Assembly: GCF_029590555.1 (NCBI RefSeq)
Contig: NZ_CP081001.1
Span: 1,860,001-1,924,000, forward strand
Direction: 5' to 3'
Origin: Sphingobium sp. V4
Lineage (GTDB): Bacteria > Pseudomonadota > Alphaproteobacteria > Sphingomonadales > Sphingomonadaceae
DNA length: 64,000 bases
Made by a program: the position numbers and the translations under genes. Numbering within the stretch: the first letter of the stretch is position 1; every line of letters begins with the position of its first letter. The notes under the pieces are model-generated. The model was not told the DNA's origin. It was given only the letters and a program-made list of their open reading frames with translations, and did not search any database. Of this stretch, positions 5,064 to 26,132 are shown in pieces.

Positions 5064-5077
5064 TGGTAGCGCTATCA
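5064..5077. promoter_or_regulatory. LacI-type operator upstream of the TonB receptor
   Basis: Near-palindrome TGGTAGCGCTATCA. The same 14-mer occurs upstream of xylX (24202-24215), and a one-base variant lies between the divergent GH3 and GH67 genes (18239-18252). It sits just downstream of a candidate promoter for the receptor, a classical repressor position. The likely ligand is the LacI-family protein encoded at 20538-21611. Confidence 0.75.
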
Positions 5078-5085
5078 ATTTCACT

Positions 5086-5113
5086 TCATTAAACGCCGCG
5101 TGCTTTTTGTCAA
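5086..5113 (-). promoter_or_regulatory. Candidate sigma70-type promoter of the TonB receptor
   Basis: On the minus strand, TTGACA (5113-5108) is followed after 16 nt by TAATGA (5091-5086). The operator at 5064-5077 begins about 9 nt further downstream. The -35 is a perfect match and the -10 is partial. Confidence 0.5.
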
Positions 5114-5132
5114 GATATGCGCATGGCGTTTA

Positions 5133-5146
5133 TGGTAACGGTATAG
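5133..5146. promoter_or_regulatory. Possible weak second LacI-type operator
   Basis: TGGTAACGGTATAG matches the operator found between GH3 and GH67 (TGGTAACGCTATCA) at 11 of 14 positions. It lies about 60 bp upstream of the main receptor operator and just 3' of the GH2 stop. It could be an auxiliary site for looping, or chance. Confidence 0.3.
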
Positions 5147-5151
5147 TCCGG

Positions 5152-7833
5152 TTATCGGCCCCGGCGTGCGGCGGCGATCTCGACCTGCGCGTCTGCCAGC
5201 CCGGCGCTGCGGGCGCGCACCACGATACGGCCGGATCGGGCGGGATCGCCCTTCACGATCACCAGGGCGAGTCCGTTGAACGCATCCCGCTGATGCGAGG
5301 GGAAGGCGGTCATGTCGGTCGGATCGCCATTGTCGGTGGCGACGATCTCCCCCGGCCCCTCGATCGAAAAGTCGATCTTCTGCTTGGCGGCGGGGACGAC
5401 ATGACCGTCCTTGTCCAGTATCTTGAGCGTCACGAAGCTGAGGTCGCGGCCGTCGCTGGCGATGGCGGACCGGTCGGCGGTCAGCGACAGCCTGGCCGCT
5501 GCGCCCACCGTGCGGACGGTCTCGGTCGCCCAGGGCTGACCCTTCTTCCAGGTGACGACCTTCACCTCGCCAGGTTCGTAGACGACATAGTCCCAGCGGA
5601 AGCGATATTCATAGTCGCGCTTCTTCACCCTGCCCTGCGACTTGCCGTTGACGAACAGTTCCGCCTCGTCCGCAGAGGAGAAGACATGGACGGGGGTGAT
5701 GTGGCCGACACGATCAGGCCACGTCCAGTGCGGCAGGATATGGGCGAATTTCAGGTCCGGCCGCCAGCGCGCCTGATAGAGCCAGAAACGGTCCTTGGGG
5801 AAACCGGCGAGATCGACGATGCCCGAATAGCTGCTGCGCGAGCTATAATAGGGCGTGGGTTCGCCGAGATAGTCGAACCCGGTCCAGACGAATTCGCCCG
5901 CGACGTAAGGGTTCTGGTCATCGGCCGCCCAGACACGATCGGGCGAGGAGCCGAAGTCGGCGGCGTGCATCTCGTAGGCGGACACCTGATGCGTGTCGGG
6001 ATTGCCGCCCGACCAGGGGCGCACCGGACCGCTGATCGCGCCTGCGACGGGAAACATATATTCGCCACGGCTGGAGAGAGCGGAGGCGCTTTCGGTGGAC
6101 AGGATGACCTTGTCCGGGAATTTCGCGCGGAAGGCCGGATATTGACCCACTATGCCGCGTATCCCGGCGCCCTGATAGTTGAGGCTGATGACGTCCATTT
6201 CGGCGGGCAGCGGCATGTCGGCCTTGGCGAAGTTCATTGCGCTGGTGGCGGGACGGGTCGGGTCTTCCTCATGGGCGATGGCGACCAGTTCGCGGCCGAT
6301 CTTCGCGCCGGCCTCCCCGTCATATTGTTCGCCGACCTCGTTGCCGATGCTCCACAGGATGATCGAGGGGTGGTTGCGGTCGCGACGCAGCATGGCGCGG
6401 GCGTCGGCCTCATGCCAGTCGGGGAAGATCAGGTGGAAATCGTGCGGCGTCTTCTTCTTTTCCCAGCTGTCGAACACTTCGTCCATCACCAGGAAGCCCA
6501 TCCGGTCGGTGAGTTCGAGCAGTTCGGGCGCCGGCGGATTGTGGCTCATACGCACGGCATTGGCACCCATGTCGCGCAGGATTTCGAGCTGGCGCTCGGC
6601 GGCGCGGGCGTTGAAGGCGGCGCCCAGCGCGCCGAGATCATGATGATTGTTGACGCCGCGCAGGGGGATATGCTCGCCATTGACGATCACGCCCTTGTCG
6701 GGATCGAACCGGATGTCGCGCACGCCGAAGCGGGTTTCATAGCTGTCGATGACCTTCCCGCCCTGGGTCACGGTGGAGATGGCGAGATAGCGGTTGGGCG
6801 CCTGCGTGGGTGGCGGTCCCCAAAGGCGCGGATTCGACAGGATGGTGGAGCCGTTCAGCACCGCCTTCGCCCCGGGGGCGATGGTGGCGGACTGGCGGGC
6901 GATGCTGGCGACAGGGCCGCCGATGCGCTTGCCCTTCGCGTCGAGCGCGTAAAGGGCGGTCGCGACCTCGACCTGCGCCTGGGTGTCGCCGTCATTGTCG
7001 AGGGTCAGGCTGAGGTCGACGGTCGCCTGCTCCTTGCTGACTCTGGGCGTGCGGACGATGCTGCCCCACTGGCCGACATGAACCTTGTTCGTGGTGGTCA
7101 GATAGATGTCGCGATAGAGGCCGCCGCCCGGATACCAGCGCGCCGAGGCGGCCGGATTGTCGAGGCGGATGGCGAGCTGGTTCCTGGCCCCCGGCAACGC
7201 ATAGGGCGTCAGGTCGAGGCGGAAGCTGTTATAGCCATAAGGCCAACCGCCGACGAGCTTTCCGTTGAGCCAGACGGTGGCGTAGGACATGGCGCCTTCG
7301 ACATCGAGGAAGATCGACTGGCCTTTCGCGCTGGCGGGAATGTCGAGCGTCTTGCGATACCAGCCGATGCCCCAGCTGGGCAGGCGGCCCATGCCGCCAT
7401 AGGGGCCTTCGGTGATGAAGGGGCCCGTGATCGCCCAGTCATGCGGCAGGTCGACAGGGGTCCATGCGCTATCGTCGAAATTCGCCTGCACATAGGACAC
7501 GTCGCCGCCGGGATTGCCTGCGGGGCGGACATGATGCTTGGCCGGATCGTTGATGAAGGGATTGGCGCTGGGAAGGATCCAGGGCTTCAGGACTTTCGCG
7601 CCGCTGTCGTCCACCTTCACGGCGGCGTCGGGGCGCGCGTCGGCCAGCTTGCCGTCGCCCGTATCCTCGATCGGTGGGCGCACGTCATAGCGCAGGTCGG
7701 TGGTGAGGCCCGCCGGGTCGCCTTTGGTGAAGCGCCAGTCCTTGCTGATGGACATGCTCTCGCGCGGCGACGTGGCGGAGGCGACCGGGGTCAGCAGGCA
7801 GGATGCCAGCAGGAGCGTGCGGATGGGCTTCAT
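5152..7833 (-). CDS. Secreted glycoside hydrolase family 2 enzyme
   Basis: Exported GH2 glycosidase of 893 residues with a signal peptide (MKPIRTLLLASCLLTPVASA). The order is an N-terminal sugar-binding domain (about 100-270), an immunoglobulin-like domain, the TIM barrel from about residue 370, and C-terminal beta domains. Catalytic glutamates are seen in WSIGNEVGEQ (acid/base) and STESAS (nucleophile). GH2 includes beta-galactosidases, beta-glucuronidases and beta-mannosidases, and the sequence alone does not decide. The start is the ATG at 7833, 16 bp after the uxuB stop, so it is the last gene of the exuT-uxaC-uxuB unit. That context suggests it removes a side-chain sugar from glucuronoxylan fragments. 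The frame runs further upstream inside uxuB but has no support there. Confidence 0.88.
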   Translation of the reverse strand: MKPIRTLLLASCLLTPVASATSPRESMSISKDWRFTKGDPAGLTTDLRYDVRPPIEDTGDGKLADARPDAAVKVDDSGAKVLKPWILPSANPFINDPAKHHVRPAGNPGGDVSYVQANFDDSAWTPVDLPHDWAITGPFITEGPYGGMGRLPSWGIGWYRKTLDIPASAKGQSIFLDVEGAMSYATVWLNGKLVGGWPYGYNSFRLDLTPYALPGARNQLAIRLDNPAASARWYPGGGLYRDIYLTTTNKVHVGQWGSIVRTPRVSKEQATVDLSLTLDNDGDTQAQVEVATALYALDAKGKRIGGPVASIARQSATIAPGAKAVLNGSTILSNPRLWGPPPTQAPNRYLAISTVTQGGKVIDSYETRFGVRDIRFDPDKGVIVNGEHIPLRGVNNHHDLGALGAAFNARAAERQLEILRDMGANAVRMSHNPPAPELLELTDRMGFLVMDEVFDSWEKKKTPHDFHLIFPDWHEADARAMLRRDRNHPSIILWSIGNEVGEQYDGEAGAKIGRELVAIAHEEDPTRPATSAMNFAKADMPLPAEMDVISLNYQGAGIRGIVGQYPAFRAKFPDKVILSTESASALSSRGEYMFPVAGAISGPVRPWSGGNPDTHQVSAYEMHAADFGSSPDRVWAADDQNPYVAGEFVWTGFDYLGEPTPYYSSRSSYSGIVDLAGFPKDRFWLYQARWRPDLKFAHILPHWTWPDRVGHITPVHVFSSADEAELFVNGKSQGRVKKRDYEYRFRWDYVVYEPGEVKVVTWKKGQPWATETVRTVGAAARLSLTADRSAIASDGRDLSFVTLKILDKDGHVVPAAKQKIDFSIEGPGEIVATDNGDPTDMTAFPSHQRDAFNGLALVIVKGDPARSGRIVVRARSAGLADAQVEIAAARRGR

Positions 7834-7849
7834 GGCGCGCCTTTCGCTT

Positions 7850-9310
7850 TCAGAGCCGGGCGAGCGCCGCGCGCGCGCCTTCGGTTTCGAGGATGGCGAG
7901 CCAGCGAACGAGTGCCGCACGGAACGGCGCGCTGGTCGCGAGGTCGGGCGGCACGACCGCGTCGAAGGCGAGGATTGCCGCAACGCGGTCCTCGGTCGAT
8001 GCGGCTCCGGCGAGTGCGGCGGCGATGGCATCGGCCAGCGGATCGTCTACCTTGTGCGCCGCGCCTTGATCGTCCACGCCCGCCTGCCAGCGGACCCAGG
8101 TGGCGACGGCGAGCGACAGGGCGTCGATCCCCTGCCCTGCCGCCAGCCGCGCGGCGATGCTGTGGAGCAGGCGCTGGGGCAGCTTCTGCGAGCCGTCCAT
8201 CGCGATCTGGCGCGTGCGGTGGCGCAGCGTCGGATTGTCGAAACGAGCCATCAGCTCGCGGCGATAGGCGGCGACGTCCAGCTCCGGCGGGGGCGACAGG
8301 GTGGTTTCCGCCTCGTCCCACAGCGCCTCCACGAACCGCCGCGCCTCGGGCAGGGCCAGCACTTCATGGACATGGTCGATGCCAGCGAGGCCGCCCAGAT
8401 AGGCGATGCCGCTGTGCGATCCGTTGAGGAGGCGCAGCTTGGCTTCCTCCCACGGGGCGACCGCCTGCGTCACCTGAACCCCGGCGCCGAATTCGGGGCG
8501 CGGGCCGCAGAAACGGTCCTCGATCACCCATTGCAGGAAGGGCTCGGTCTTGACCATCGCCTGATCCTCGACGCCGATGCGCGCGGTGAGCGTGGCGATG
8601 TCCTCCGCCGTGGTCGCCGGGACGATTCGGTCGACCATGGTCTGGGGGAACGCCCCCTCCCCCGCGATCCAGTCGGCCAGCCCGGCGTCATGGCGACGGG
8701 CGAGCGCGATCACCGCGTCGCGCAGCCGCGTGCCATTGTGCGGCAGGTTGTCGCAGCTGATCGCGGTGAAGGGCGGCAGGCCCGCCGCGCGGCGCATGGC
8801 CAGCGCCGCGACCAGATAGCCGGGCGCGGTCTGCGGGCTTTCCAGCGAGGCGATATCGGCAACGAGTTGCGGGTCGCTTTCTATCAGCGCGCCGGTCGCA
8901 GGGTCGAGCTTGTAGCCCTTCTCCGTGATGGTCAGCGTCACCATATGGGTGTCGGGCGACGTTAGCGCGGCGAGCAGCGCCTGCGGTTCTTCCGGCGCGA
9001 CGATGACGCGCTGGACCGCGCCGATCACCCGCGCCTGCTCGGCTGCCCCGTCGCGCACCAACATGGTGTAGAGGCCGTCCTGCGGCGCCATCTGGTCGCG
9101 CACGGCGGGCGAGCGCAGCGACGCGGCGGTGATGCCCCAGCGCAGGTCGCCCGCGTTCAGGGCATCGTCGAAGACGACCGCCTGATGCGCGCGATGGAAG
9201 GCACCGATGCCGATATGGACGACGCCGCATGTCACGGCGGCGCGGCCATAGGCCGGGCGGACGACATCGGCCGGCAGCCCGGCCAGTGTGGCGGAGGACA
9301 GGCGGGTCAC
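7850..9310 (-). CDS. uxuB: D-mannonate oxidoreductase / fructuronate reductase
   Basis: NAD-dependent reduction of D-fructuronate to D-mannonate, the second step of glucuronate catabolism after UxaC. The 486-residue protein belongs to the long-chain mannitol dehydrogenase family. The Rossmann segment is at residues 29-43 (VVHIGIGAFHRAHQ), and the catalytic K..NGSH motif lies in EEAKLRLLNGSHSG in the second half. It starts at a GTG (9310) that overlaps the uxaC stop as GTGA, a translational coupling arrangement. The GH2 gene follows after 16 bp. Family and role are well supported by sequence and by neighbours uxaC, exuT and manD. Confidence 0.92.
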   Translation of the reverse strand: MTRLSSATLAGLPADVVRPAYGRAAVTCGVVHIGIGAFHRAHQAVVFDDALNAGDLRWGITAASLRSPAVRDQMAPQDGLYTMLVRDGAAEQARVIGAVQRVIVAPEEPQALLAALTSPDTHMVTLTITEKGYKLDPATGALIESDPQLVADIASLESPQTAPGYLVAALAMRRAAGLPPFTAISCDNLPHNGTRLRDAVIALARRHDAGLADWIAGEGAFPQTMVDRIVPATTAEDIATLTARIGVEDQAMVKTEPFLQWVIEDRFCGPRPEFGAGVQVTQAVAPWEEAKLRLLNGSHSGIAYLGGLAGIDHVHEVLALPEARRFVEALWDEAETTLSPPPELDVAAYRRELMARFDNPTLRHRTRQIAMDGSQKLPQRLLHSIAARLAAGQGIDALSLAVATWVRWQAGVDDQGAAHKVDDPLADAIAAALAGAASTEDRVAAILAFDAVVPPDLATSAPFRAALVRWLAILETEGARAALARL

Positions 9311-10728
9311 AGCTTGTAGGCCGTTTTCACAAGGTCATAGGCCAGCGCGCGCGCGACATCGAACGCCTCATCCTCCTCCAGCCGATGTTCGGCGACAAGC
9401 TGGGCGAGCCAGCCGCAATCCATGCGGCGTGCGACGTCATGGCGCGCCGGAATGGAGAGGAAGGCGCGGGTGTCGTCGTTGAAGCCGACCGTATTGTAGA
9501 AGCCGGCCGTCTCCGTCGCGCGCTCGCGGAAACGGCGCATCCCTTCGGGACTGTCGTTGAACCACCAGGGCGGTCCCAGCTTGAGCGCGGGATAATGACC
9601 CGCCAGCGGCGCGAGCTCGCGCGAATAGACATCCTCGTCCAGGGTGAAGAGGATCAGGGTCAGGCGCGGATCATTGCCATAGAGATCGAGCAGCGGCTTC
9701 AATGCCTGCACAAACTCGCCGGCGGTCGGTATGTCCGCCCCCTTGTCCCTGCCAAAGCGCGCGCGCACCGCGTCATTATGGTTGCGGTGGACGCCGGGAT
9801 GCAGCTGCATCACCATGCCGTCGGCGATCGACATGCGCGCCATTTCGGTCAGCATATGGCCGCGAAACTGCTCCGCTTCCTCGCGCGTGGCCGGGCCGGT
9901 CGTCACCCTGGCATAGAGCGCCTCGATCTCCGCGCGCGGCAGGTTCGCCGTGAAGGCGGACGGGTGGCCATGGTCGGTCGAGGTCGCGCCCGCCGCGCGG
10001 AAATCGGCGCGGCGCTTTTCATGGGCGCGGAGGTATCCGGCATAGCTGCCTGCATCCTCGCCCGCCATGGCGCAGAAACGCTGCACATTGTCGATGAACT
10101 TGGGATCATCGGGGTCGAGCACCGGATCGGGGCGATAGGCGGTGACGACCTTGCCGCCCCAGCCGGATTGCCGGATCGCGCGATGATGGTCGAGCGGATC
10201 GAGCGGCCCTTCGGTCGTGGCGATGACCTCGATATTGTAACGCTCGAACAGCGCGCGCGGACGGAAGGCGTCGGTCTTCAGCGCGGCGTCGATGATGTCG
10301 TAATAATGATCGGCGGTTGCCGGCTCCAGCCGCACGTCTATGCCGAACGCCTCGGCAAAGACCCAGTCCAGCCACATGCGCGAGGGCGTGCCGCGGAACA
10401 GGTGATAGTTGGCCGCGAAGCGATGCCAGATGGCGCGCGGATCGCTTTCGGTCGCACTGCCGTCGATGGTGGGCACGCCCAGTTCGTCCAGCCTCACGCC
10501 CTGGCTGTAGAGCATACGGAACACATAATGGTCCGGCACGATCAGCAGGTCGGCGGGATTGGCGAAAGGCTCGTCATAGGCGAACCAGCGCGGATCGGTA
10601 TGGCCATGGGGGCTGACGATCGGCAGATCCTTGACCGTGGCATAGAGCCTGCGGGCGATGTCGCGCGTGGTCGGGTCCGACGGGAACAGGCGATCAGGGT
10701 GAAGGCGAAGCGGTTTGGTCAAGATCAT
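9307..10728 (-). CDS. uxaC: Uronate isomerase
   Basis: Converts D-glucuronate to D-fructuronate (and galacturonate to tagaturonate). The 473-residue protein is the usual size for this amidohydrolase-superfamily enzyme. The N-terminal metal motif is visible at SPHGHTDPRWF (about residues 39-49), followed by PDHYVFRMLYSQGV and, near the C-terminus, GPPWWFNDSPEGMRRF and GFYNTVGFNDDTRAF. Its ATG at 10728 overlaps the transporter stop codon as ATGA, and its own stop overlaps the uxuB GTG by 4 bp. The three genes are therefore tightly coupled. It would act on glucuronic acid freed by the GH67 enzyme in this locus. Confidence 0.95.
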   Translation of the reverse strand: MILTKPLRLHPDRLFPSDPTTRDIARRLYATVKDLPIVSPHGHTDPRWFAYDEPFANPADLLIVPDHYVFRMLYSQGVRLDELGVPTIDGSATESDPRAIWHRFAANYHLFRGTPSRMWLDWVFAEAFGIDVRLEPATADHYYDIIDAALKTDAFRPRALFERYNIEVIATTEGPLDPLDHHRAIRQSGWGGKVVTAYRPDPVLDPDDPKFIDNVQRFCAMAGEDAGSYAGYLRAHEKRRADFRAAGATSTDHGHPSAFTANLPRAEIEALYARVTTGPATREEAEQFRGHMLTEMARMSIADGMVMQLHPGVHRNHNDAVRARFGRDKGADIPTAGEFVQALKPLLDLYGNDPRLTLILFTLDEDVYSRELAPLAGHYPALKLGPPWWFNDSPEGMRRFRERATETAGFYNTVGFNDDTRAFLSIPARHDVARRMDCGWLAQLVAEHRLEEDEAFDVARALAYDLVKTAYKL

Positions 10729-12008
10729 GCTCCTAGGCCGGCTGTGCCACCGGTGGCAACGACCTGATAGCGCGGAATTATGAGATGAATAGTCAAAAGT
10801 GCGACGAGATAGGCGCAGGACGCCACCGCGAAGATCGGACCATAGCTGCCGACCGTTTCCAATATGGTGCCGGCGAATTTCGCCATCAGCATCCCGCCGA
10901 TCGCACCGGCCAGGCCGCCAAGCCCCACGACCGACCCGGCCATCCAGCGCGGGAATACGTCGCCGGGCAGCGCATAGAGATTGGCGGAAAAGCCCTGATG
11001 CCCGGCGCAGGCCAGGCCGATCAGGCCGACCGCCACCCACATGGACGGCGCATGGGTGGCGAAGGCGATCGGCACGGCACAGAGGGCCGCGAGCAACATC
11101 GCGCTCTTGCGCGCGCGATTGACGCTCCAGCCCCGGCCCATGAAGCGTGAGGAGGCCCAGCCGCCCGCCACCGAACCGACATCGGCCAGAAGATAGACGG
11201 CGATCAGCGGCGGACCGAAGTCCAGCATCTTCACGCCATATTGCTTGTTGAAGAAATCGGGCAGCCAGAAGAGGAAGGTCCACCAGACCGGATCGATCAG
11301 GAAGCGGCCGGCCATATAGGCCCAGGTCTGGCGATGGCGGAACAGTGTCGCCCATTTGACGGGGCGGCTTTCCTCGACCGGATCGGTTTCGATCCAGGCC
11401 AGTTCCTCGGCCGTCAGGCTCTTCTTTTCGCGCGGACGACGGTAGAAGGTCAGCCAGGCGGCGAGCCAGACCACGGTCAGCAGGCCGGTCAGGATGAAGG
11501 CCCAGCGCCAGCCCATGGTGACGGCGATGATGGGGACGACCAGAGGCGTCAGGATCGCGCCGACATTCGACCCGGCATTGAAGATGCCGATGGCGAACGC
11601 CCGTTCCTTCTTGGGGAACCATTCATTGGTCGCGGCGATGGCGGCGGGGAACGTCCCCGCCTCCCCGATCGCCAGCGGAATGCGCGCGAACAGCATCCCG
11701 GCGGTCGAGGTGAAGAAGATGTGCGCGACATGCCCGAGCGTCCACAAGGACACGGCGATGGCATAGCCCGCCCGCGCGCCGACCCGGTCGATCAGGCGAC
11801 CGAAAAACACATAGGCGATGCCATAGCCCGCCTGGAACCAGATGGCGAGGTCGGCATAGCCGCGCTCGCTCCAGCCATAGCGGGCCTGAAGATCGGGCTT
11901 CAGCGTGGGCAGGACGAGGCGGTCGATATAGCTGAGCACCACCGCCGCGAACAGCAGGCCGCAGACGATCCAGCGGACCTTTCCGGAGGGTTTTGAGATG
12001 GTGGTCAT
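10725..12008 (-). CDS. exuT: MFS hexuronate transporter, ExuT type
   Basis: Inner-membrane major facilitator of 427 residues with about 12 transmembrane segments and a central cytoplasmic loop (PREKKSLTAEELAWIETDP). The N-terminal pattern YIDRLVLPTLKPDLQARYGWSE and GEAGTFPAAIAATNEWFPKKER match the anion:cation symporter / hexuronate transporter group. It precedes uxaC with an ATGA overlap, consistent with uptake of glucuronate or aldouronic acid. The start at 12008 gives a short charged N-terminus before the first helix. Substrate is inferred from the operon and family. Confidence 0.88.
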   Translation of the reverse strand: MTTISKPSGKVRWIVCGLLFAAVVLSYIDRLVLPTLKPDLQARYGWSERGYADLAIWFQAGYGIAYVFFGRLIDRVGARAGYAIAVSLWTLGHVAHIFFTSTAGMLFARIPLAIGEAGTFPAAIAATNEWFPKKERAFAIGIFNAGSNVGAILTPLVVPIIAVTMGWRWAFILTGLLTVVWLAAWLTFYRRPREKKSLTAEELAWIETDPVEESRPVKWATLFRHRQTWAYMAGRFLIDPVWWTFLFWLPDFFNKQYGVKMLDFGPPLIAVYLLADVGSVAGGWASSRFMGRGWSVNRARKSAMLLAALCAVPIAFATHAPSMWVAVGLIGLACAGHQGFSANLYALPGDVFPRWMAGSVVGLGGLAGAIGGMLMAKFAGTILETVGSYGPIFAVASCAYLVALLTIHLIIPRYQVVATGGTAGLGA

Positions 12009-12009
12009 A

Positions 12010-12140
12010 GCCCGCTCCTCCCAGGAGAGGGAAGGGGCCCGCGGCCGCAGGCCGTGGGAAGGGTGGGGAGGAGGTGCAGATCGCCCTCACCCTCCCGCCG
12101 CTGCGCGGCTCCTTCCCTCTCCCGTTGGGAGAGGGACAGT
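12010..12140. repeat. GC-rich intergenic repeat with strong hairpin
   Basis: This gap between manD and exuT holds a perfect 9-bp hairpin, CCCTCTCCC-GTT-GGGAGAGGG (12115-12135), and further matching purine/pyrimidine blocks (AGGAGAGGGAAGG and CCTTCCCTCTCC) that could pair across about 100 bp. It resembles the REP-like intergenic elements common in sphingomonad and related genomes. It may attenuate or process the manD-exuT transcript. No second copy was seen in this window. Confidence 0.6.
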
Positions 12141-12156
12141 AGGCCCAACATATCCA

Positions 12157-13368
12157 TCACCAATTATACATGGTGCCGTCTTCGAGCCGGTTCACCGGCA
12201 GGAAGGCGCGCTTATATTCATATTGGGCGGCCAGTTCCTCATCGAGATCGACGCCCAGCCCCGGCTTGTCACCCGGATGCATCATGCCGTCGGCGAATGT
12301 ATAGGCATGGGGGAAGACCGCATCCGTCTCCTCGGTGTGGCGCATATATTCCTGGATGCCGAAGTTCGGCACGCTGAGGTCGAAATGCAGCGCGGCGGCC
12401 ATGCACACCGGCGACAGGTCGGTCGCGCCGTGGCAGCCGGTGCGGACCTGATACAGGTCGGCGAGGTTGGCGATCTTGCGCAGGTGGCTGATGCCGCCGG
12501 CATGGACCACAGTGGCGCGGATATAGTCGATCAGCTGGTTCTGGATCAGTTCGCGGCAGTCATGGATCGAGTTGAAAATCTCGCCCACGGCCAGCGGCGA
12601 CGTGGTGTGCTGGCGGATCAGCCTGAAGGCTTCCTGATTTTCCGCCGGGGTCGCATCCTCCAGCCAGAAGGGACGATAGGGTTCGAGATCCTTGCCGAGA
12701 CGCCCCGCCTCGATCGGGGTCAGGCGGTGGTGGATGTCGTGCAGCAGATGAACGTCCCAGCCCAGCGCCTCGCGCGCGGCCTTGAACAGTTCGGGGACGA
12801 CCCGCAGATATTTGCTGGTGTTCCAGACATTTTCGGTCGGCAGGTCGGCGTCGGCCGGCTCGTAGAAATATTTGTCCTTCGACACGCCATAGGTCGATGC
12901 CATGCCGGGGACGCCGCACTGGAGGCGGATCGCCTTGTAGCCCTGCCGCTGATATTCCAGGGCGACATTCACCGTATCCTCGATCGTCGTGCCGTTGGCA
13001 TGGCCATAGACCATGACGCCTTCACGACTCGCGCCGCCCAGAAGCTGATAGACCGGCAGGCCCGCGACCTTGCCCTTGATGTCCCAGAGCGCGGTGTCGA
13101 CGGCGGCGATCGCCGACATGGTGACGGGGCCGCGACGCCAATAGGCGCCCTTGTAGAGATATTGCCAGATATCCTCGATCCGGTGCGCGTCCCGGCCGAT
13201 CAGGCAGGGAATGACATGATCGGTCAGATAACTGGCGACGGACAGTTCGCGGCCGTTGAGCGTCGCGTCGCCCAGGCCGTAAACGCCTTCAGCCGTCTCG
13301 ATCTTCAAGGTCACGAAATTGCGGCCGGGCGACGTGACGATCACCTTGGCGCCGGTAATGATGGGCAT
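12157..13368 (-). CDS. manD: D-mannonate dehydratase, enolase superfamily
   Basis: Dehydrates D-mannonate to 2-keto-3-deoxy-D-gluconate, the third step of glucuronate breakdown. The 403 residues have the ManD pattern: Arg148 (KAIRLQ), Tyr160, metal ligands Asp211, Glu237 and Glu263, and His213 in HDIHHRLTP. These sit exactly one position after the residues I recall for the Novosphingobium aromaticivorans enzyme. The start at 13368 is set by GGAG about 7 nt upstream; a longer frame reaches 13407. The upstream gap carries two ATTGGT-type palindromes. KDG kinase and aldolase, needed next, are not in the window. Confidence 0.95.
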
Positions 13369-13382
13369 CGGACACTCCGTAA

Positions 13383-13397
13383 ATTGGTAAAGCCAAT
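13383..13397. promoter_or_regulatory. Palindromic operator candidate upstream of manD
   Basis: ATTGGTAAAGCCAAT, an imperfect palindrome 15 bp upstream of the manD start. An inverted relative lies 27 bp away at 13425-13439. The TGGT..CCA core resembles GntR/FadR-type sites. No GntR gene is present in the window. Confidence 0.45.
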
Positions 13398-13424
13398 ATC
13401 TATGCAATCTGCCTTTTCGTCAAT

Positions 13425-13439
13425 ACTGGCCTGACCAAT
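13425..13439. promoter_or_regulatory. Second palindromic operator candidate upstream of manD
   Basis: ACTGGCCTGACCAAT; read on the other strand it is ATTGGTCAGGCCAGT, sharing ATTGGT...GCCA.T with the site at 13383-13397. It abuts the stop codon of the upstream GH3 gene. Two like sites in a 70-bp gap suggest a dedicated glucuronate-responsive regulator. Confidence 0.4.
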
Positions 13440-15808: not shown

Positions 15809-18183
15809 GGCGTCACCGTCAGCGTGGCGGACTTGAGCGCGACCGAGCTGTTGCCGGTCATGATCTCGAAATCGCCCGGCTCGACCACGCGCTGCATATG
15901 GTCGTTCCACATCCACAGGCTTTGCGGGCTGATCGTGAAGGTGACGGTGCGGGTTTCGCCGGGTTTCAGGGTGACGCGCTGGAAGCCTTTCAATTCCTTG
16001 ATCGGCCGGGTCACGGAGCTGACCTTGTCGCGGATATAGAGCTGGACGACCTCGTCGCCCTCGCGCTGGCCCGTGTTGCGGACATCGACCGAGACCGTCG
16101 TCTTGCCGCCCGTGCCGATGCGGGTCGCGGCCAGACGCGGGGCGGACAGGTCGAAGTTCGTGTAGCTGAGGCCGAAGCCGAATGGATAGAGCGGGTCGGT
16201 GGTGTCGAACAGATAGCCGCGCCGCGCCGAGGGCTTGGCATTGTAGAACATCGGCAGTTGCCCGACCGAGCGCGGCACGGTGACGGGCAGCTTGCCGCCG
16301 GGGTTAACATCCCCGAACAGCACATCCGCCACGGCATTGCCGCCCTGCTCGCCCAGATACCAGCCTTCGAGGATGGCGTTGGCCTGCTCGCTGACCTTCA
16401 CGGTCGAGGCCGGACGGCCGTTGATGAGGACGACCGTGATCGGCTTGCCCAGCGCCTTCAGCGCATCGAACAGTTCCTGCTGCTCGCCGACCAGATCCAG
16501 GCTGGGTCGGTCGCCCAGATGATTGTCGGCCCAGCCTTCGCGGCTCGACTGTTCGGTGTCACCCAAGGTCAGGACGATGCGGTCGACATTGCGCGCGGCC
16601 TCCACCGCCTGCGCGATCAGCTTGCGGTTTTCGGCGGGATCGGACTTGGTGACGCTGTCTTCCCACCAGTCGTCATTCTCGGTGATCTTCACGCCCTGCG
16701 CGAAGACGATGTTGGCTTTGCTACCGACCTTCGCCTTGATCCCGTCGAGGATCGACACCGTATGCGGCGGCTGGCCATAATAGCCGCCCAAACGCGCGAC
16801 GGCGGCGCTGGGGCCGATGACCGCGATCGTGCCTTCTGGCTTCAGCGGCAGCATCCCGTCATTCTTGAGCAGGGTGATGGAGCGCTGCGCCGCCTTCAGC
16901 GCCAGCGCGCGCGCCTCCGCATTGTTGGTGATCTTCTCCGACGCGGCGGCGTCGGCATAGGGATTCTCGAACAGCCCGGCCCGGAATTTCAGTTCCAGCA
17001 TCCGGCGCACGGCCAGATCGACCTTCGCCTCGCTGACCTTGCCCTCGCGCACCAATTTGCCCAGCGTCGCATAGGAGAGGCCATCGGGCAGGTCGGCGTC
17101 CACGCCCGCGTCGAGCGCACGGATCGCGGCCTCCTCCAGATTGGCGGCGATATGGTGGATGCTCATCAGCTGGTCGACCGCCGAATAATCGGACACGACC
17201 GCACCCTTGAAGCCCCATTCCTCGCGCAGCACGTCTTCGAGCAGCCAGCGATTGGCATGGCTGGGGACGCCGTCGATTTCATTGTAGCTGGCCATGACCG
17301 CTTCGATGCCGGTGCGCTTGACCACCTGTTCGAAAGGCGGGAAGAAATTCTCGCGCAGTTCGCGCTCCGACACCGGCGCGGGGCCGACATTGGTGCCGCT
17401 TTCCGGCTGGCCATGGCCGGTCAGATGCTTGAGCGTGGCGAACACCTTGCCATCGCGCAGGTCGCGACTGCGGCCGACGCCCTGCAAGCCTTCCACAGCC
17501 GCAACGCCCATCTCCCCGACCAGATAGGGATCTTCGCCATAGGTTTCCTCGATCCGGCCCCAGCGCGGATCGCGGGCGATGTCGACCACCGGGGACAGCA
17601 CCATCGGCACGCCACGGACACGTATTTCCCGCGCGATCACGCTGTTGACCTCGCGCAGCATGTCGGTGTCGAAGGAGGACGCCATGGCGATCGACTGGGG
17701 GAAGCTGGTCGCGCCGACGGCCGCATAACCGTGCAGCCCTTCCTCATGGAAGAGGATCGGGATGCCGAGCCGCGTCTGCGTCGTCGCCCATTTTTGCAGG
17801 GCGTTGACGAGTGCGACCGTCTGGCGCGGATTGCGTCCTGGTGCGACCCGAGGACTGACGGCACCCTTCGCGTCGGAAGGACGGGTGAAATGACCCATGC
17901 CGTTGGGATATTGCGCGGCGAGCTTCGCGGGATCGAGTTGCAGCCGGTCGTCGAAAATCTTGACCTTGTCGAGCCAGACGGTGGTGATCTGCGCGATTTT
18001 TTCGTCCAGCGTCATGCGCGAGAGCAGATCGTCCACACGCGCCTCCACCGGCGCATTGGCGTCCTTGTAGATCGCCCTGGCCGATGCGGCGGCAGTCGGC
18101 GCGGCCTGAACCGGCGCGCAGGGCAGCGCCACGCCAAGCGCCAGCGCCGATACGGCGCAGAGGATTTTGCTGCTATGGTTCAC
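15805..18183 (-). CDS. GH3 beta-glycosidase, likely beta-xylosidase (paralogue 2)
   Basis: GH3 enzyme of 792 residues with a Sec-type signal peptide (about 27 residues, ending CAPVQA). It is clearly paralogous to the downstream GH3 gene: LSPVVDIARDPRWGRIEETYGEDPYL, KHLTGHGQPESG, nucleophile Asp in GAVVSDYSAVDQ, and a C-terminal Fn3-like domain. Two starts are possible: the ATG at 18198, or the GTG at 18183 preceded by GGAGAGGGG. I prefer the GTG because of its ribosome binding site and a cleaner leader. It is the first gene of the GH3 pair and diverges from GH67 with an operator between them. Confidence 0.92.
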   Translation of the reverse strand: MNHSSKILCAVSALALGVALPCAPVQAAPTAAASARAIYKDANAPVEARVDDLLSRMTLDEKIAQITTVWLDKVKIFDDRLQLDPAKLAAQYPNGMGHFTRPSDAKGAVSPRVAPGRNPRQTVALVNALQKWATTQTRLGIPILFHEEGLHGYAAVGATSFPQSIAMASSFDTDMLREVNSVIAREIRVRGVPMVLSPVVDIARDPRWGRIEETYGEDPYLVGEMGVAAVEGLQGVGRSRDLRDGKVFATLKHLTGHGQPESGTNVGPAPVSERELRENFFPPFEQVVKRTGIEAVMASYNEIDGVPSHANRWLLEDVLREEWGFKGAVVSDYSAVDQLMSIHHIAANLEEAAIRALDAGVDADLPDGLSYATLGKLVREGKVSEAKVDLAVRRMLELKFRAGLFENPYADAAASEKITNNAEARALALKAAQRSITLLKNDGMLPLKPEGTIAVIGPSAAVARLGGYYGQPPHTVSILDGIKAKVGSKANIVFAQGVKITENDDWWEDSVTKSDPAENRKLIAQAVEAARNVDRIVLTLGDTEQSSREGWADNHLGDRPSLDLVGEQQELFDALKALGKPITVVLINGRPASTVKVSEQANAILEGWYLGEQGGNAVADVLFGDVNPGGKLPVTVPRSVGQLPMFYNAKPSARRGYLFDTTDPLYPFGFGLSYTNFDLSAPRLAATRIGTGGKTTVSVDVRNTGQREGDEVVQLYIRDKVSSVTRPIKELKGFQRVTLKPGETRTVTFTISPQSLWMWNDHMQRVVEPGDFEIMTGNSSVALKSATLTVTP

Positions 18184-18238
18184 GAAACCCCTCTCCATTT
18201 TTCCGGTGCGGCGATCTTTATGCTTGCCGCGACCAAAC

Positions 18239-18252
18239 TGATAGCGTTACCA
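18239..18252. promoter_or_regulatory. LacI-type operator between divergent GH3 and GH67 genes
   Basis: TGATAGCGTTACCA (reverse complement TGGTAACGCTATCA) differs by one base from the operators upstream of the TonB receptor and xylX. On the minus strand, TTGACA at 18277-18272 lies about 18 nt before the position where this site would overlap the -10. A repressor here could control both transcription directions. Confidence 0.75.
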
Positions 18253-18324
18253 TTGCTCGGACAAAGAGACTTGTCAATGCCCGTCGAACGGGCTTTTGAC
18301 ATCGAAGCCAAGGGAGAGGGTCGA

Positions 18325-20469
18325 GTGATAGCGCGCCTGTTTTGCTGGATGATTGCCGTGACCGGGGCGCTGCTGTCGCCCATGGCGCAGGCCGAGGACG
18401 GCTATGATCTGTGGCTGCGCTATGCGCGCGCGGATCAAGCCCGCAGCGCCGATCTGGCGGCCCATGCGACCGCCATCGTCGCCCCCGGCAACAGCCCGAC
18501 CCTGACCGCCGCCACCGCAGAATTGCAGCGCGGCGTCGCCGGTATGAGCGGCGCGGCGCCCACCCTGTCAGCAATAGTTCAGCAAGGTGCGCTCTGGCTG
18601 GCGACCCCCGCCTCCTCCCCTGCCCTGCCGATCCGGACCGAGGGGCTGGGCAACGAAGGCTATGCGATTCGCTCGACCCAGATGGAGGGCAAGGCCGTCA
18701 CCCTGATCGCTGCGAACAGCGACATCGGCCTGCTCCACGGCGCCTATCACTGGCTGCGGCTGGCGCAGACCGGCGCACGACTCGACGCGATCGACATCCG
18801 CAGCGCGCCCAGAATCGGGCTGCGCCTGCTCAACCATTGGGACAATCTGAATGGCACGGTCGAACGCGGCTATGCCGGCGCATCGATCTGGGACTGGTGG
18901 CGCCTGCCCGACTGGAAGGGGCCGCGCTATACCGACTATGCCCGCGCAAACGCCTCGATCGGCATCAACGGCACCGTCCTCAACAATGTGAATGCCAAGG
19001 CGGACAGCCTGACCGCGCCCTATATCGCCAAGGCGGCGGGGCTGGCCGATGTCTTTCGTCCCTATGGCATCAAGGTCTATCTGTCGGTCAAATGGACCGC
19101 GCCGATGGAACTGGATGGCCTGAAGACCGCCGATCCGCTCGATCCGGCGGTCGCCGCCTGGTGGCAGGCGAAGGCGGACGAAATCTACAGGGCGATCCCC
19201 GATTTCGGCGGCTTTCTGGTGAAGGCCAACAGCGAGGGCCAGCCGGGGCCGCAGGATTATAACCGCACCCATGCCGATGGCGCGAACATGCTGGCGGCGG
19301 CGGTTAAGCCGCATGGCGGCATCGTGATGTGGCGCGCCTTCGTCTATGCCCATGACAATCCCGACGACCGCGCGAAACAGGCATACACCGACTTCAAGCC
19401 GCTCGACGGCCGGTTCGCGGACAATGTGATCGTCCAGGTGAAGAATGGCGCGATCGACTTCCAGCCGCGCGAACCCTTCCATCCGCTGTTCGGCGCGATG
19501 CCGAAAACGCCGCTGATGATGGAGTTCCAGATCACCAAAGAATATCTGGGCCAGTCGACGCACCTCACCTATCTCGGCACCCTGTTCGAGGAGACGCTGG
19601 ACGCGGACACTTATGCCAAGGGCAAGGGATCGACGGTCGCCAAGGTCATCGACGGATCGCTGGATGGCCACGAACTGACCGGGATCGCCGGCGTCGCCAA
19701 TATCGGCGCGGATCGCGACTGGAGCGGGTCGATCTTCAACCAGGCGGACTGGTACGCGTTCGGACGCCTCGCATGGGATACCAGTCTGTCGGCGGAGAGC
19801 ATCGCGAAGGAATGGGCGGAGATGACCTTCTCCCCCGATCCGAAGGTCGTGCAGCCGGTCGTCACGATGATGATGGGATCGCGGGAGGCGGCGGTGGACT
19901 ATATGACCCCGCTCGGCCTCACCCATGTCATGGATACCGGCCATCATTATGGTCCCGGGCCCTGGGTGTCCGATCTGGCGCGGCCAGAATGGAACCCGGT
20001 CTATTATCACAAGGCGGATGCGAACGGCATCGGCTTTGACCGCACGAAGACGGGCAGCGATGCCGTAAGCCAATATGCGCCGCCGGTCGCGAAGATGTGG
20101 GGCAATGTGAAGACCACGCCGGAGCGCGACCTGCTCTGGTTCCACCATCTGTCCTGGGATCATCGCCTGCGATCGGGCGAGACGCTGTGGGATGGTCTCG
20201 TCCATCGCTATGACCGGGGCGTCGCCTATGTCGCCGACATGCAGACGCGATGGGCGGCGCTCAAGCCCCATGTCGATGCGGAGCGTTTCGCGCAGACGCA
20301 GACCTTCCTGACGATCCAGCATCGCGAGGCGCTATGGTGGCGCGACGCCAGCATCGCCTATTTCCAGTCGCTGTCGAAGCGCCCCCTGCCCACCGGATCG
20401 GCCGCGCCCGCCCATGACCTGAACTGGTACAAGGCGCAGCGCTTCCCCTATGCGCCGGGGCATAACTGA
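18325..20469 (+). CDS. GH67 alpha-glucuronidase
   Basis: Releases (4-O-methyl-)glucuronic acid from the non-reducing end of aldouronic acids derived from glucuronoxylan. The 714-residue protein has a leader ending MAQAEDG (about residue 23), so it is probably periplasmic. Catalytic residues expected for GH67 are visible: Glu304 in KANSEGQPGPQDY, Asp378 in GAIDFQPREP and Glu406 in FQITKEYLGQ. The conserved HWDNLNGTVERGYAG and IWDWWRLP segments are present. A frame runs far upstream, but the GTG at 18325 has GGGAGAGG 5 nt before it. It is divergent from the GH3 pair across a LacI-type operator, and lacI follows after 68 bp. Confidence 0.96.
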   Translation: MIARLFCWMIAVTGALLSPMAQAEDGYDLWLRYARADQARSADLAAHATAIVAPGNSPTLTAATAELQRGVAGMSGAAPTLSAIVQQGALWLATPASSPALPIRTEGLGNEGYAIRSTQMEGKAVTLIAANSDIGLLHGAYHWLRLAQTGARLDAIDIRSAPRIGLRLLNHWDNLNGTVERGYAGASIWDWWRLPDWKGPRYTDYARANASIGINGTVLNNVNAKADSLTAPYIAKAAGLADVFRPYGIKVYLSVKWTAPMELDGLKTADPLDPAVAAWWQAKADEIYRAIPDFGGFLVKANSEGQPGPQDYNRTHADGANMLAAAVKPHGGIVMWRAFVYAHDNPDDRAKQAYTDFKPLDGRFADNVIVQVKNGAIDFQPREPFHPLFGAMPKTPLMMEFQITKEYLGQSTHLTYLGTLFEETLDADTYAKGKGSTVAKVIDGSLDGHELTGIAGVANIGADRDWSGSIFNQADWYAFGRLAWDTSLSAESIAKEWAEMTFSPDPKVVQPVVTMMMGSREAAVDYMTPLGLTHVMDTGHHYGPGPWVSDLARPEWNPVYYHKADANGIGFDRTKTGSDAVSQYAPPVAKMWGNVKTTPERDLLWFHHLSWDHRLRSGETLWDGLVHRYDRGVAYVADMQTRWAALKPHVDAERFAQTQTFLTIQHREALWWRDASIAYFQSLSKRPLPTGSAAPAHDLNWYKAQRFPYAPGHN

Positions 20470-20487
20470 TATTTTGCTTCCATCGGC

Positions 20488-20515
20488 TGTTGTCGCTACC
20501 ATTTCGATAACGACA
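20488..20515. promoter_or_regulatory. Possible autoregulatory site upstream of lacI
   Basis: TGTTGTCGCTACCA (20488-20501) matches the locus operator at about 11 of 14 positions. It overlaps an inverted repeat TGTCGCTA-N8/9-TAACGACA. The pair lies 25-50 bp before the TTG start of the LacI-family gene. Weak evidence. Confidence 0.3.
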
Positions 20516-20537
20516 TCACCCCGCAGAAGGGCCGACA

Positions 20538-21611
20538 TTGACCGATACGCGAACCTCCCGCCGCCAGCGCAACGCCCCCACCATCAACGATGTCGCCCGC
20601 CATGCAGGCGTGTCCCCCATGACGGTGTCGCGCGTCATAAATGGCGAGCAGGTGGTGAAGGCCGAAACCCGCGCCAAGGTGGAGGAGGCGATCAAGGCGC
20701 TCAACTATGCGCCCAGCGCCGCCGCGCGCAGCCTGGCGGGGGGGGACGAAACGCGGATCGGCCTGCTCTACAGCAACCCGTCCTCGTCCTACCTCAGCGA
20801 GTTCCTGGTCGGCAGCCTGGACCAGGCGAGCCGCAGCGGCATCGACCTGGTGGTCGAGAAATGGGACGAGCAGACATCGGTCCAGTCGGTGGTCGACCAT
20901 CTGCTGCGTGGGCGGATCGACGGCGTCGTGCTGCCCCCGCCGCTCTGCGACCTGGAGGAGATGGTGGAAGCGCTGGCCGCCGCCGATATTCCCGCCGTGG
21001 CGGTAGCGACCGGCCGCCCACCATCGGATCTGTCCGCCGTCAGCATCGATGACCGCCAGGCCGCCTATGAAATGACCCGGCATCTGATCGCGCTCGGCCA
21101 TGCGCGCATCGGCTTCATCAGGGGCAATCCCAACCAGACCGCCAGCGCGCGCCGCTTCGAGGGCTATGTCGCGGCTTTGCAGGAAGCCGGGCTGGCCATA
21201 GAGGACGAACTGATCGCGCAGGGCTATTTCACCTACCGGTCAGGACTGGACGCGGCCGAGCATATTTTGTCGCTGATCGATCCGCCGACCGCGATCTTCG
21301 CCAGCAACGACGACATGGCCGCCGCGACCGTGGCGATCGCGCACCGCAACGGGCTGGACGTGCCGGGCGACCTCACCGTCTGCGGTTTCGACGACAGCTC
21401 GCTGGCCACGACGATCTGGCCGGAACTGACGACGATCCGCCAGCCGATCAGCGCCATGTCGCGCGCGGCGGTCGAACTGCTGGTGCGGCGGGTGAAGGGC
21501 CGCCGAGGTCAGAAGACTGGCGAGGCCGAGCATCTGGTGCTCGACCATGCGCTCATCCGCCGCCAGTCCGATGCCGCGCCGAGGGTGCGGCCGCGGATGG
21601 GCGGCAGGTAA
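20538..21611 (+). CDS. LacI-family transcriptional repressor, XylR-like
   Basis: Sugar-responsive repressor of 357 residues. The N-terminal LacI helix-turn-helix is at residues 15-36 (INDVARHAGVSPMTVSRVIN), with the hinge helix NYAPSAAARSLAGG. The periplasmic-binding-protein-like effector domain follows from about residue 70 (IGLLYSNPSSSYLSEFLVGSL ... ALGHARIGFIRG ... IFASNDDMAAA). The start is a TTG at 20538 with AGAAGGG about 6 nt upstream. Its place next to GH67, and the three TGGTA.CGCTATCA sites at the receptor, GH3/GH67 and xylX, make it the likely regulator of the whole xylan/xylose locus. The ligand is probably xylose or a xylo-oligosaccharide (inferred). Confidence 0.93.
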   Translation: MTDTRTSRRQRNAPTINDVARHAGVSPMTVSRVINGEQVVKAETRAKVEEAIKALNYAPSAAARSLAGGDETRIGLLYSNPSSSYLSEFLVGSLDQASRSGIDLVVEKWDEQTSVQSVVDHLLRGRIDGVVLPPPLCDLEEMVEALAAADIPAVAVATGRPPSDLSAVSIDDRQAAYEMTRHLIALGHARIGFIRGNPNQTASARRFEGYVAALQEAGLAIEDELIAQGYFTYRSGLDAAEHILSLIDPPTAIFASNDDMAAATVAIAHRNGLDVPGDLTVCGFDDSSLATTIWPELTTIRQPISAMSRAAVELLVRRVKGRRGQKTGEAEHLVLDHALIRRQSDAAPRVRPRMGGR

Positions 21612-21629
21612 TTCCGCCCGTCTTGCGGC

Positions 21630-22946: not shown

Positions 22947-23109
22947 GGGCGAATCCTGATTGGCTGGATGGGAGTCGCCGCGCCGACTAGCAGCACCTTC
23001 CGGCGCTAGCAAATCGCGCACGCCCTGCCGTGCGCCCGCACCGTTTCTTCGCAATTAGCCCAAGCAAAAAAGTCGAACCGAGCCATTTCGCAAGATGAAT
23101 GGCGCCAGA

Positions 23110-23123
23110 TGAACGAGCGTTCA
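23110..23123. promoter_or_regulatory. Perfect palindrome in the purB / EF-hand intergenic region
   Basis: TGAACG-AG-CGTTCA, 6-bp arms with a 2-nt centre. The form resembles TetR-type operators. It lies 164 bp upstream of purB and about 100 bp upstream of the EF-hand gene. Confidence 0.3.
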
Positions 23124-23221
23124 GGAACAATAGCAGGGACTCGACTATTATTCCGTAACGAATTCAGGAGTCGGGCATGAATGCTCTGCTTCGCAAGAAG
23201 GTCGCTCAACAGGAGGTCGCA

Positions 23222-23683
23222 ATGATCCGCACATTTTTGTTCACGACGGCTTTGGTCATCGCAGCTCCCGCCATGGCGCAGCAGACGCCGAGTGCCGATC
23301 AGGGCGCCACCCCCAACGCCCCGCAATCGGCGCAGCCGGCAGTGCCCGCAACGCCCGCGCAACCCCAGTCGTCCGCGCCGGCAACCCCAGCCACGCCCGC
23401 CCAGCCCGCGACACCCGCCAATCCGGCCGGCTCGGTCGCGTCGATAGTGGACAGCGAATTCCCGGCCTATGACGCGAACAGCGACGGCCAGCTCGACAAG
23501 TCCGAATTCTCGCGCTGGATGCTCGCGCTCAAGGACCAGGAAATGAAGGCTACGGGCAAGACGCTGCCGGCGGACCAAGTGACGGCCTGGGCCGACGGCG
23601 CCTTTACCAGCGCGGATTCGGACAAGAGCACGACCGTCAGCAAGCCGGAACTGATCAGCTATCTGAGCGGCGGCGCAGCCTGA
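23222..23683 (+). CDS. Secreted EF-hand protein with Pro/Ala-rich linker
   Basis: Protein of 153 residues with a signal peptide (MIRTFLFTTALVIAAPAMAQ). A low-complexity Ala/Pro/Gln/Thr linker spans about 22-75, followed by two EF-hand-like loops: DANSDGQLDKSEF (a good calcium-binding loop) and DSDKSTTVSKPEL (the second, weaker). It is probably a periplasmic calcium-binding protein of unknown role. The start at 23222 has a strong AGGAGG 5 nt upstream; an in-frame ATG at 23177 has none. A strong terminator follows. Confidence 0.85.
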   Translation: MIRTFLFTTALVIAAPAMAQQTPSADQGATPNAPQSAQPAVPATPAQPQSSAPATPATPAQPATPANPAGSVASIVDSEFPAYDANSDGQLDKSEFSRWMLALKDQEMKATGKTLPADQVTAWADGAFTSADSDKSTTVSKPELISYLSGGAA

Positions 23684-23748
23684 CGCACAATGGAATAAAC
23701 CCGCCTGTCACGAAGGGCGGATGAAGAGCCCGAAACGGGTCGCATCAT

Positions 23749-23788
23749 GGGATGGCATGGACCGGACAGGGCCATGCCATCCCTTTTT
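23749..23788 (+). terminator. Intrinsic terminator after the EF-hand gene
   Basis: A 12-bp perfect stem (GGGATGGCATGG, 23749-23760, with 23772-23783), 11-nt loop and T5 tail (23784-23788). Confidence 0.9.
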
Positions 23789-23885
23789 GTGTCGGGATGA
23801 CGCGAAAACCGCCATTCACCGCCCCCGGCACCGGGGCGCAGCGATCATGCGATATTCGCAGATCCCGCGGGTCGTCCGGCGGGAA

Positions 23886-24080
23886 TCAGCCCTTCTTGCG
23901 GGCGTAGAGCAAGGCAGCGACGATCGCGGCGGAACCGATACCGACCGCAGTACCCATCCATACGCCCTTGCCCGCGGACTTGCGTGCGGCGACGGCGAGA
24001 TCGGCCTTTTCATTGGCGGGCGTTGCGGGAGAAGCGGCGTCTGCGCCGGTTGCCGGCGCGCTGTCTTCGGTCTTGCTCAT
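23886..24080 (-). CDS. Small single-pass membrane protein
   Basis: A 64-residue protein with an Ala/Pro/Thr-rich, charged N-terminus and one C-terminal transmembrane segment (VWMGTAVGIGSAAIVAALLYA) ending in RKKG, so the C-terminus probably faces the cytoplasm. AAGGA precedes the ATG. No known function; the composition resembles small hypothetical proteins common in sphingomonads. It diverges from xylX with the xylX operator between them. Confidence 0.65.
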   Translation of the reverse strand: MSKTEDSAPATGADAASPATPANEKADLAVAARKSAGKGVWMGTAVGIGSAAIVAALLYARKKG

Positions 24081-24177
24081 GGTCCTTGTAGCTATGCCCC
24101 AAAGCGGCGCCCCGGAAAAGACCGAAGGCGCGCCGGGCCTACGACTTTCCGCTGACGCGCCTTTTACGCAACACCCC

Positions 24178-24206
24178 TTGACTCCGCGCCCGGTTCCATG
24201 TTGGTA
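24178..24206 (+). promoter_or_regulatory. Candidate promoter of the xyl operon
   Basis: TTGACT (24178-24183), a 17-nt spacer, then TTGGTA (24201-24206) as a poor -10 overlapping the operator at 24202-24215. This arrangement suggests direct occlusion of RNA polymerase by the repressor. Confidence 0.45.
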
Positions 24207-24215
24207 GCGCTATCA
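24202..24215. promoter_or_regulatory. LacI-type operator upstream of xylX
   Basis: TGGTAGCGCTATCA, identical over 14 bp (and into the following AATTT) to the site upstream of the TonB receptor at 5064-5077, 19 kb away. It lies about 30 bp before the xylX start. As I recall, the Caulobacter crescentus xylose operator has closely related half-sites (TAGCGCTACCA). Confidence 0.8.
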
Positions 24216-24245
24216 ATTTACAACCATTCGCTTTAGGAGTTGATG

Positions 24246-26131: not shown

Positions 26132-26132
26132 C

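Follow-up and report, generated by a model that had tools for sequence, protein, structure and literature searches.

A LacI-family protein as the probable XylR-type repressor of xylan and xylose genes that share a 14-bp operator in Sphingobium sp. V4

We analysed a 64,000-bp stretch of the genome of Sphingobium sp. V4 (the window, C1:1860001-1924000; positions without a contig name are counted within it), in which the 14-mer TGGTAGCGCTATCA recurs upstream of genes for xylan and xylose use. It is highly probable that a LacI-family protein, the product of the gene at 20538..21611, has this 14-mer as its operator and acts as a XylR-type repressor of the xylan and xylose units. The evidence consists of the sites, their positions, their conservation and their co-occurrence with the protein; from these we infer binding, repression, inducer, promoters and, by gene spacing, the extents of the operons.

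A scan of the window gave exact copies of the 14-mer on the plus strand at 5064-5077 (O1), about 50 bp before the start of a TonB-dependent receptor gene, and at 24202-24215 (O3), before xylX, just as the original prediction had stated. It had also placed a one-base variant between a pair of GH3 genes and a GH67 gene. This copy (O2) was found at 18239-18252, with one mismatch (TGGTAACGCTATCA on the minus strand, its orientation, and TGATAGCGTTACCA on the plus strand); as GH67 is read from the plus strand and GH3 from the minus strand, it lies in the divergent intergenic region between their starts. With up to two mismatches the window contains five strand-wise matches, compared with 0.18 expected, and none of 100 shuffles reached five. 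Across all 4.54 Mb of the genome, in four contigs, only four places match with at most one mismatch, namely the three window sites and C1:2022712, a perfect palindrome (TGATAGCGCTATCA) outside the window and 138 kb away. Starting, by prediction, 45 bp downstream of this fourth site is a GH43 gene whose product has a β-xylosidase C-terminal domain; all four sites are thus directly upstream of xylan or xylose genes. A random frequency of the motif across the genome had been named beforehand as refuting; no such frequency was seen, the sole additional place at this stringency being the one before GH43.

At two mismatches the motif no longer discriminates. The real motif was found 9 times forward and 7 times in reverse, and the reversed pattern 29 and 31 times; because the reversed pattern is the commoner, two-mismatch places were given no weight. 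The nine additional places of this kind (L005-L013), their count being at background, were dropped as regulon members. Four of them (L005, L007, L009 and L010) are inside predicted coding frames, L008 is between two converging gene ends, L011 has no predicted frame passing the filter, and L006, L012 and L013 have non-xylan neighbours (histidine phosphotransferase, AcrB-type pump with LysR, and GST genes).

The sites are near-palindromes with a central CG, symmetric at 12, 10 and 12 of 14 positions at the three window sites and at 14 of 14 before GH43, and thus have the form of putative LacI/GalR-type operators. The LacI-family gene that had been predicted among them is read from the plus strand, and its product has an N-terminal helix-turn-helix domain (PF00356, 69.6 bits, cut-off 27) followed by a periplasmic-binding-protein-like domain (PF13377, 120 bits, cut-off 26.5), which places it in the LacI/GalR family. 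Its recognition helix reads S-PM-TVSR. Eighteen NCBIfam models match the protein, none of them at its cut-off and none a XylR model. The label XylR-type (XylR-like for the protein) is given by operator and gene context, the XylR proteins of C. crescentus (which we take to be CC3065) and Xanthomonas lying outside the comparison. No entry labelled Caulobacter vibrioides or crescentus was among the best 120 of either LacI homologue search, most entries having no name.

The context is that of known XylR systems. Caulobacter has a LacI-type XylR with a 14-bp operator in PxylX (PMC7198004). This XylR is a repressor released by xylose (PMC8625115, PMC10380989), and the xyl operon, a transporter, polysaccharide enzymes and receptors are co-induced (PMC8625115). 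A palindrome is present upstream of xylose-induced Caulobacter TonB receptors and at two Xanthomonas TonB-receptor promoters (PMC1790865). In Xanthomonas the xyl-box, TGGTAGCGCTAACA, controls genes of xylan degradation and xylose use (PMC7748154, PMC10380989). The 14-mer is one base away from this box and, as in a XylR regulon, stands before both the xyl operon and a TonB receptor gene. The suggested likeness to the Caulobacter operator is thereby backed, with the base-by-base likeness referring to the Xanthomonas xyl-box only.

The positions of the sites relative to promoter-like elements fit simple repression and are usual for a repressor. O3 is 18 bp behind TTGACT before xylX and O2 is 19 bp behind TTGACA before GH3, both over the expected -10 element, and O1 is 30 bp downstream of TTGACA in the minus-strand TonB promoter, just past the expected -10. 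TTGAC was found within 45 bases before the site in 22 of 22 xylX promoters printed, being further off in L033. A dimer of the LacI protein on the near-palindrome TGRTARCGYTAYCA would, over the expected -10 or just past it near the transcription start, block RNA polymerase. Xylan breakdown products would enter the cell, and a small sugar would release the repressor; D-xylose, as reported for Caulobacter, is the most likely inducer and xylobiose is possible. The units released would be the TonB receptor gene, GH67, the GH3-GH3 unit (perhaps continuing through ManD, MFS, UxaC, reductase and GH2), xylX-xylB-xylC-xylE-epimerase, and GH43 138 kb away.

To follow the site in relatives we used 80 LacI genes of named records, with 33 usable xylX and 32 usable GH67 promoters; gene order was read at 51 of these loci, and site and helix counts used all 80. 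A site with at most one mismatch precedes xylX in 22/33 and GH67 in 22/32 of these promoters. Among 300 permuted palindromes the maximum was one for xylX and zero for GH67. The permuted motifs differed from the real one in at least 8 columns; an earlier set made without that rule peaked at 22/33 for xylX, which was blamed, unchecked, on a permutation too near the real motif. The site has stayed before xylX in L027 and L028 despite the inversion of the xyl operon there. A draft genome of the same genus (G224) has homologues of the TonB, GH3/GH67, xylX and GH43 genes, 67-90% identical, all with a site. Its GH2 gene has been relocated to another contig, away from the TonB and reductase genes, and has a site of its own, TGATAACGTTACCA; these five account for five of the seven sites found there with a relaxed motif. 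A further draft (G263) has all four sites, before GH43, xylX, GH67/GH3 and TonB. Three relatives from Caulobacterales records (L040, L046 and L051, 62-65% identical) are encoded near xylX, two of them with the box and the third with TGATACCGGTAACA.

Motif and protein also occur together across the order. In 296 Sphingomonadales genomes the motif TGRTAGCGCTAYCA was present in 51 and this LacI, called at E ≤1e-90, in 63; both were present in 44, LacI only in 19, the motif only in 7 and neither in 226, an odds ratio of 75 (Fisher test) compared with 2.4 for the reversed motif. The genes next to the sites were checked with one site per genome, in 30 of the 51 motif genomes and 30 of the 36 reversed-motif genomes. 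A homologue of the window gene set (plus GH43) reads away within 500 bp from 22/30 motif sites and from 0/30 reversed-motif sites, some homologue matches being as low as 32% identity. Footprinting in relatives, co-occurrence and neighbour enrichment thus support one LacI-type operator for a xylan/xylose regulon, as predicted; the proposed limit of 20 kb did not hold, the set of sites reaching GH43 138 kb away.

Several observations weigh against this reading. No site was found at ≤1 mismatch in 11/33 xylX and 10/32 GH67 promoters; the relaxed motif TGNTANCGNTANCA occurs in 5 and 1 of these respectively, and neither form in 6 and 9. In our genome this relaxed motif is found at 10 places and its reversed control at 14, so that only the clustering of the places speaks for it. 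Around the 80 LacI genes, one of six TonB homologues (at least 35% identical, possibly different receptors) has a site. The 17 Oxalobacteraceae loci have no exact site and a one-mismatch site in 6. The strict motif is absent from 19 of the 63 genomes with this LacI, and the genomes counted are related, the Fisher test being uncorrected for descent. Outside the family, LacI proteins 25-30% identical adjoin the same motif in 7/20 loci, and 2 of 15 such genomes searched hold this LacI at 1e-50; the motif is therefore not private to this clade. At the lacI promoter itself there is only a degenerate operator-like stretch with three mismatches (TGTTGTCGCTACCA, 20488-20501), and weak autoregulation through it is possible. 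The stretch is identical in L026 and L033 and degenerate in the remaining Sphingobium rows, and 9 of 79 relatives have a site with at most one mismatch before lacI. Finally, the P-M recognition helix also occurs in loci (L041, L042 and L044) where the sole site before xylX is TGGTATCGATATCA, further upstream than usual; specificity would therefore not be strict, and cross-talk with the LacI protein L015 described below is possible.

Some P-M relatives have T/A-type sites before xylX. This favours an alternative that we regard as unlikely, in which genuine LacI operators are occupied chiefly by a different LacI protein, of which the genome encodes nine in all, or by several together. Examples are L015 (C2:1245045; 48% identical) and L020 (C1:2979219), whose 48-49% identity to the window LacI is also in its favour, as is the helix x-M-T-[VA]-S-R common to the three, with P-M in the window LacI, S-M in L015 and V-M in L020. 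However, the ten genome places of the relaxed motif comprise four xyl-type sites, one isolated site and five of TATCGATA type. These five make up all but one of the six places not in the xyl set, and are divided between the two ends of C2, the contig that carries L015 (L135, L145). L015 itself has one about 100 bp before it, a TonB gene has one just before it and another TonB gene two; the two ends would make a single cluster only with a circular C2. As T/A-variant sites (TGATATCGATATCA being the L015-type site) accompany L015's own genes, the remaining xyl-type set, found at the window genes and GH43, is left to the window LacI, which the motif also tracks across the order. In a tree of 79 of the 80 relatives (one, with an in-frame stop, was left out), the window LacI is in a supported, mostly Sphingobium clade (100/96), and L015 and L020 are outside the clade of relatives and window protein, with modest support (86/83) and long branches.

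That the protein is an activator or a dual regulator at some promoters, rather than a simple repressor, is less probable still. Two observations at GH67 favour it: the Sphingobium rows have a weak -35-like box (TTGCC), and the distance from the end of the site to the start (14-117 bp, and 70-92 bp in 14 of 22 relatives) leaves room for another role. Against it are the sites over or beyond the expected -10 at xylX, GH3 and TonB, and the description of Caulobacter XylR as a xylose-released repressor in the papers cited above. A chance or functionless repeat has next to no probability. A 14-bp sequence is short, and its genome count at two mismatches is at or below chance, but conservation, position and the reversed and permuted controls are all contrary; this explanation was rejected on the window shuffles, the co-occurrence and the neighbour and permutation controls.

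With the 14-mer read as the operator of the window LacI, its three window sites could together govern the receptor, the hydrolysis of backbone and side chains, the breakdown of glucuronate and some of the oxidative use of xylose. The minus-strand genes run downwards from 18198. The first GH3 gene of the unit (15805..18198) is followed by the second (13439..15916), the D-mannonate dehydratase gene manD (12157..13407; 749 bits, cut-off 550), an MFS transporter gene (10725..12008), perhaps for hexuronates or aldouronates to judge from its neighbours, and the glucuronate isomerase gene uxaC (9307..10728; Pfam UxaC). Next are a mannitol-dehydrogenase family gene (7850..9310), likely for fructuronate reductase, its best NCBIfam model scoring below its cut-off, a GH2 glycosidase gene (5152..7833; NCBIfam beta-galactosidase GalB, 1474 bits, cut-off 900) and, with its own site, the TonB receptor gene (2148..5012; TIGR01782 TonB-Xanth-Caul, above cut-off). 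A perfect LacI-like palindrome, TGCCACCGGTGGCA, lies at 10745-10758, 16 bp before uxaC in the 3′ end of the transporter gene. It was dropped as a further operator; 2 of 10 UxaC homologues (L029, L030) have a LacI-like palindrome there, of different sequence.

On the plus strand, the GH67 alpha-glucuronidase gene (18325..20469, GTG start) precedes lacI, and an adenylosuccinate-lyase-type gene on the opposite strand and an EF-hand gene are between lacI and xylX. XylX (24240..25379) has an FAA-hydrolase fold, and its solved relatives include 2-keto-3-deoxy-D-arabinonate dehydratase (2q18, E 1e-18). It is followed by the D-xylose 1-dehydrogenase XylB (25307..26131; NF053674, 448 bits, cut-off 400), a XylC-type lactonase of SMP-30/gluconolactonase fold (26043..27023), a XylE-type sugar porter (27045..28457) and an aldose 1-epimerase (28475..29344), all encoded on the plus strand. 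The structure nearest to XylC is 7plb (E 2e-71), presumably the C. crescentus xylonolactonase. The porter is above the TIGR00879 cut-off, and its best model, D-xylose transporter XylE, is below its own.

The original prediction had placed oxidative xylose catabolism under the operator. This stands for xylX, xylB, xylC and xylE, whose operon has the operator upstream. Upstream of the only xylonate-dehydratase-like gene, at C1:2091 kb, there is no site with up to three mismatches, so that the operator may cover no more than part of oxidative xylose catabolism. IlvD/EDD-type dehydratases number three in the genome: IlvD, Edd and this one (L215, C1:2083000-2100000). Its gene is followed by an aldehyde-dehydrogenase-like gene, with all NCBIfam matches below cut-off. 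The dehydratase scored 1075 bits with galactonate dehydratase 7m3k and 811 bits with 5oyn, which we take to be the C. crescentus xylonate dehydratase, and may be a galactonate dehydratase.

The core layout is already known from Caulobacter and Xanthomonas, and what we describe is, as judged from sequence, the sphingomonad version of the XylR regulon. With Caulobacter it shares the LacI-type regulator, the 14-bp operator, and the xyl operon and TonB receptor under a palindrome; unlike there, GH67, the two GH3 genes and the glucuronate branch are clustered no more than 20 kb from the regulator. The Caulobacter operon is xylXABCD (PMC8625115), whereas here it is xylX-B-C-E-epimerase, with the dehydratase and aldehyde-dehydrogenase candidates elsewhere. 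In Xanthomonas a xylose isomerase gene (xylA2) is under the box, and here the oxidative-route genes. The alpha-proteobacterial LacI regulons GluR, PckR, GapR and BglR belong to the same family and come from the same kind of in silico inference, but concern central metabolism or beta-glucosides, and the main text of that paper has no mention of XylR, xylan, TonB or Sphingomonad (PMC4052901). Among the papers listed, titles and the starts of abstracts yielded no sphingomonad xylan LacI regulon, and the exact 14-mer TGGTAGCGCTATCA was not found, while two papers contain TGGTAGCGCTAACA, in a search that left most subscription papers outside. The fresh elements are the fourth site at GH43, the glucuronate branch, the sister LacI with T/A-variant sites, the site before the relocated GH2 gene and the site-less xylonate-dehydratase-like gene. 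Together these would give a map of xylan control in Sphingobium-type bacteria in which one likely repressor acts at four sites, from the outer membrane to sugar oxidation and the glucuronic-acid branch.

Two sister repressors with separate operator sets in one genome would make LacI-family specificity and regulon rewiring directly testable. On C2, the second large contig, L015 perhaps owns another regulon for polysaccharide use. Tentatively, and with more doubt than confidence, we propose that sister repressors, each with a polysaccharide regulon, have arisen by a split within one sphingomonad LacI subfamily (helix x-M..R). Of the two operator types, AGCGCT would serve glucuronoxylan, and ATCGAT, belonging to the 48%-identical sister, another polysaccharide locus in which TonB receptors accompany heparinase-, GH97-, GH2- and GH88-type genes. 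Insulation would depend on essentially one symmetric base pair (6/9), and operators would be gained or kept as genes move, as for GH2 in G224. If true, the split would be a natural test of paralogue insulation during regulon rewiring.

The genes near the five TATCGATA-type sites are two TonB genes and GH97, GH2, GH88-like, heparinase-II/III-like and KduI genes. L020 lies among GH43-like, GH35, GH88 and MFS_2 genes (L134, C1:2970000-2989000), and no TGNNANCGNTNNCA site was found in the 19 kb around it. In the Betaproteobacteria, the 17 Oxalobacteraceae loci (among L057-L094; Massilia, Duganella, Rugamonas and others) encode LacI proteins 59-61% identical to that of the window. Their nesting as a clade within the sphingomonad tree suggests exchange. 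Near lacI in five of the loci, where the helix is always A-M, stands TGRTTGCGCTANCA, whose half-site change is a different one.

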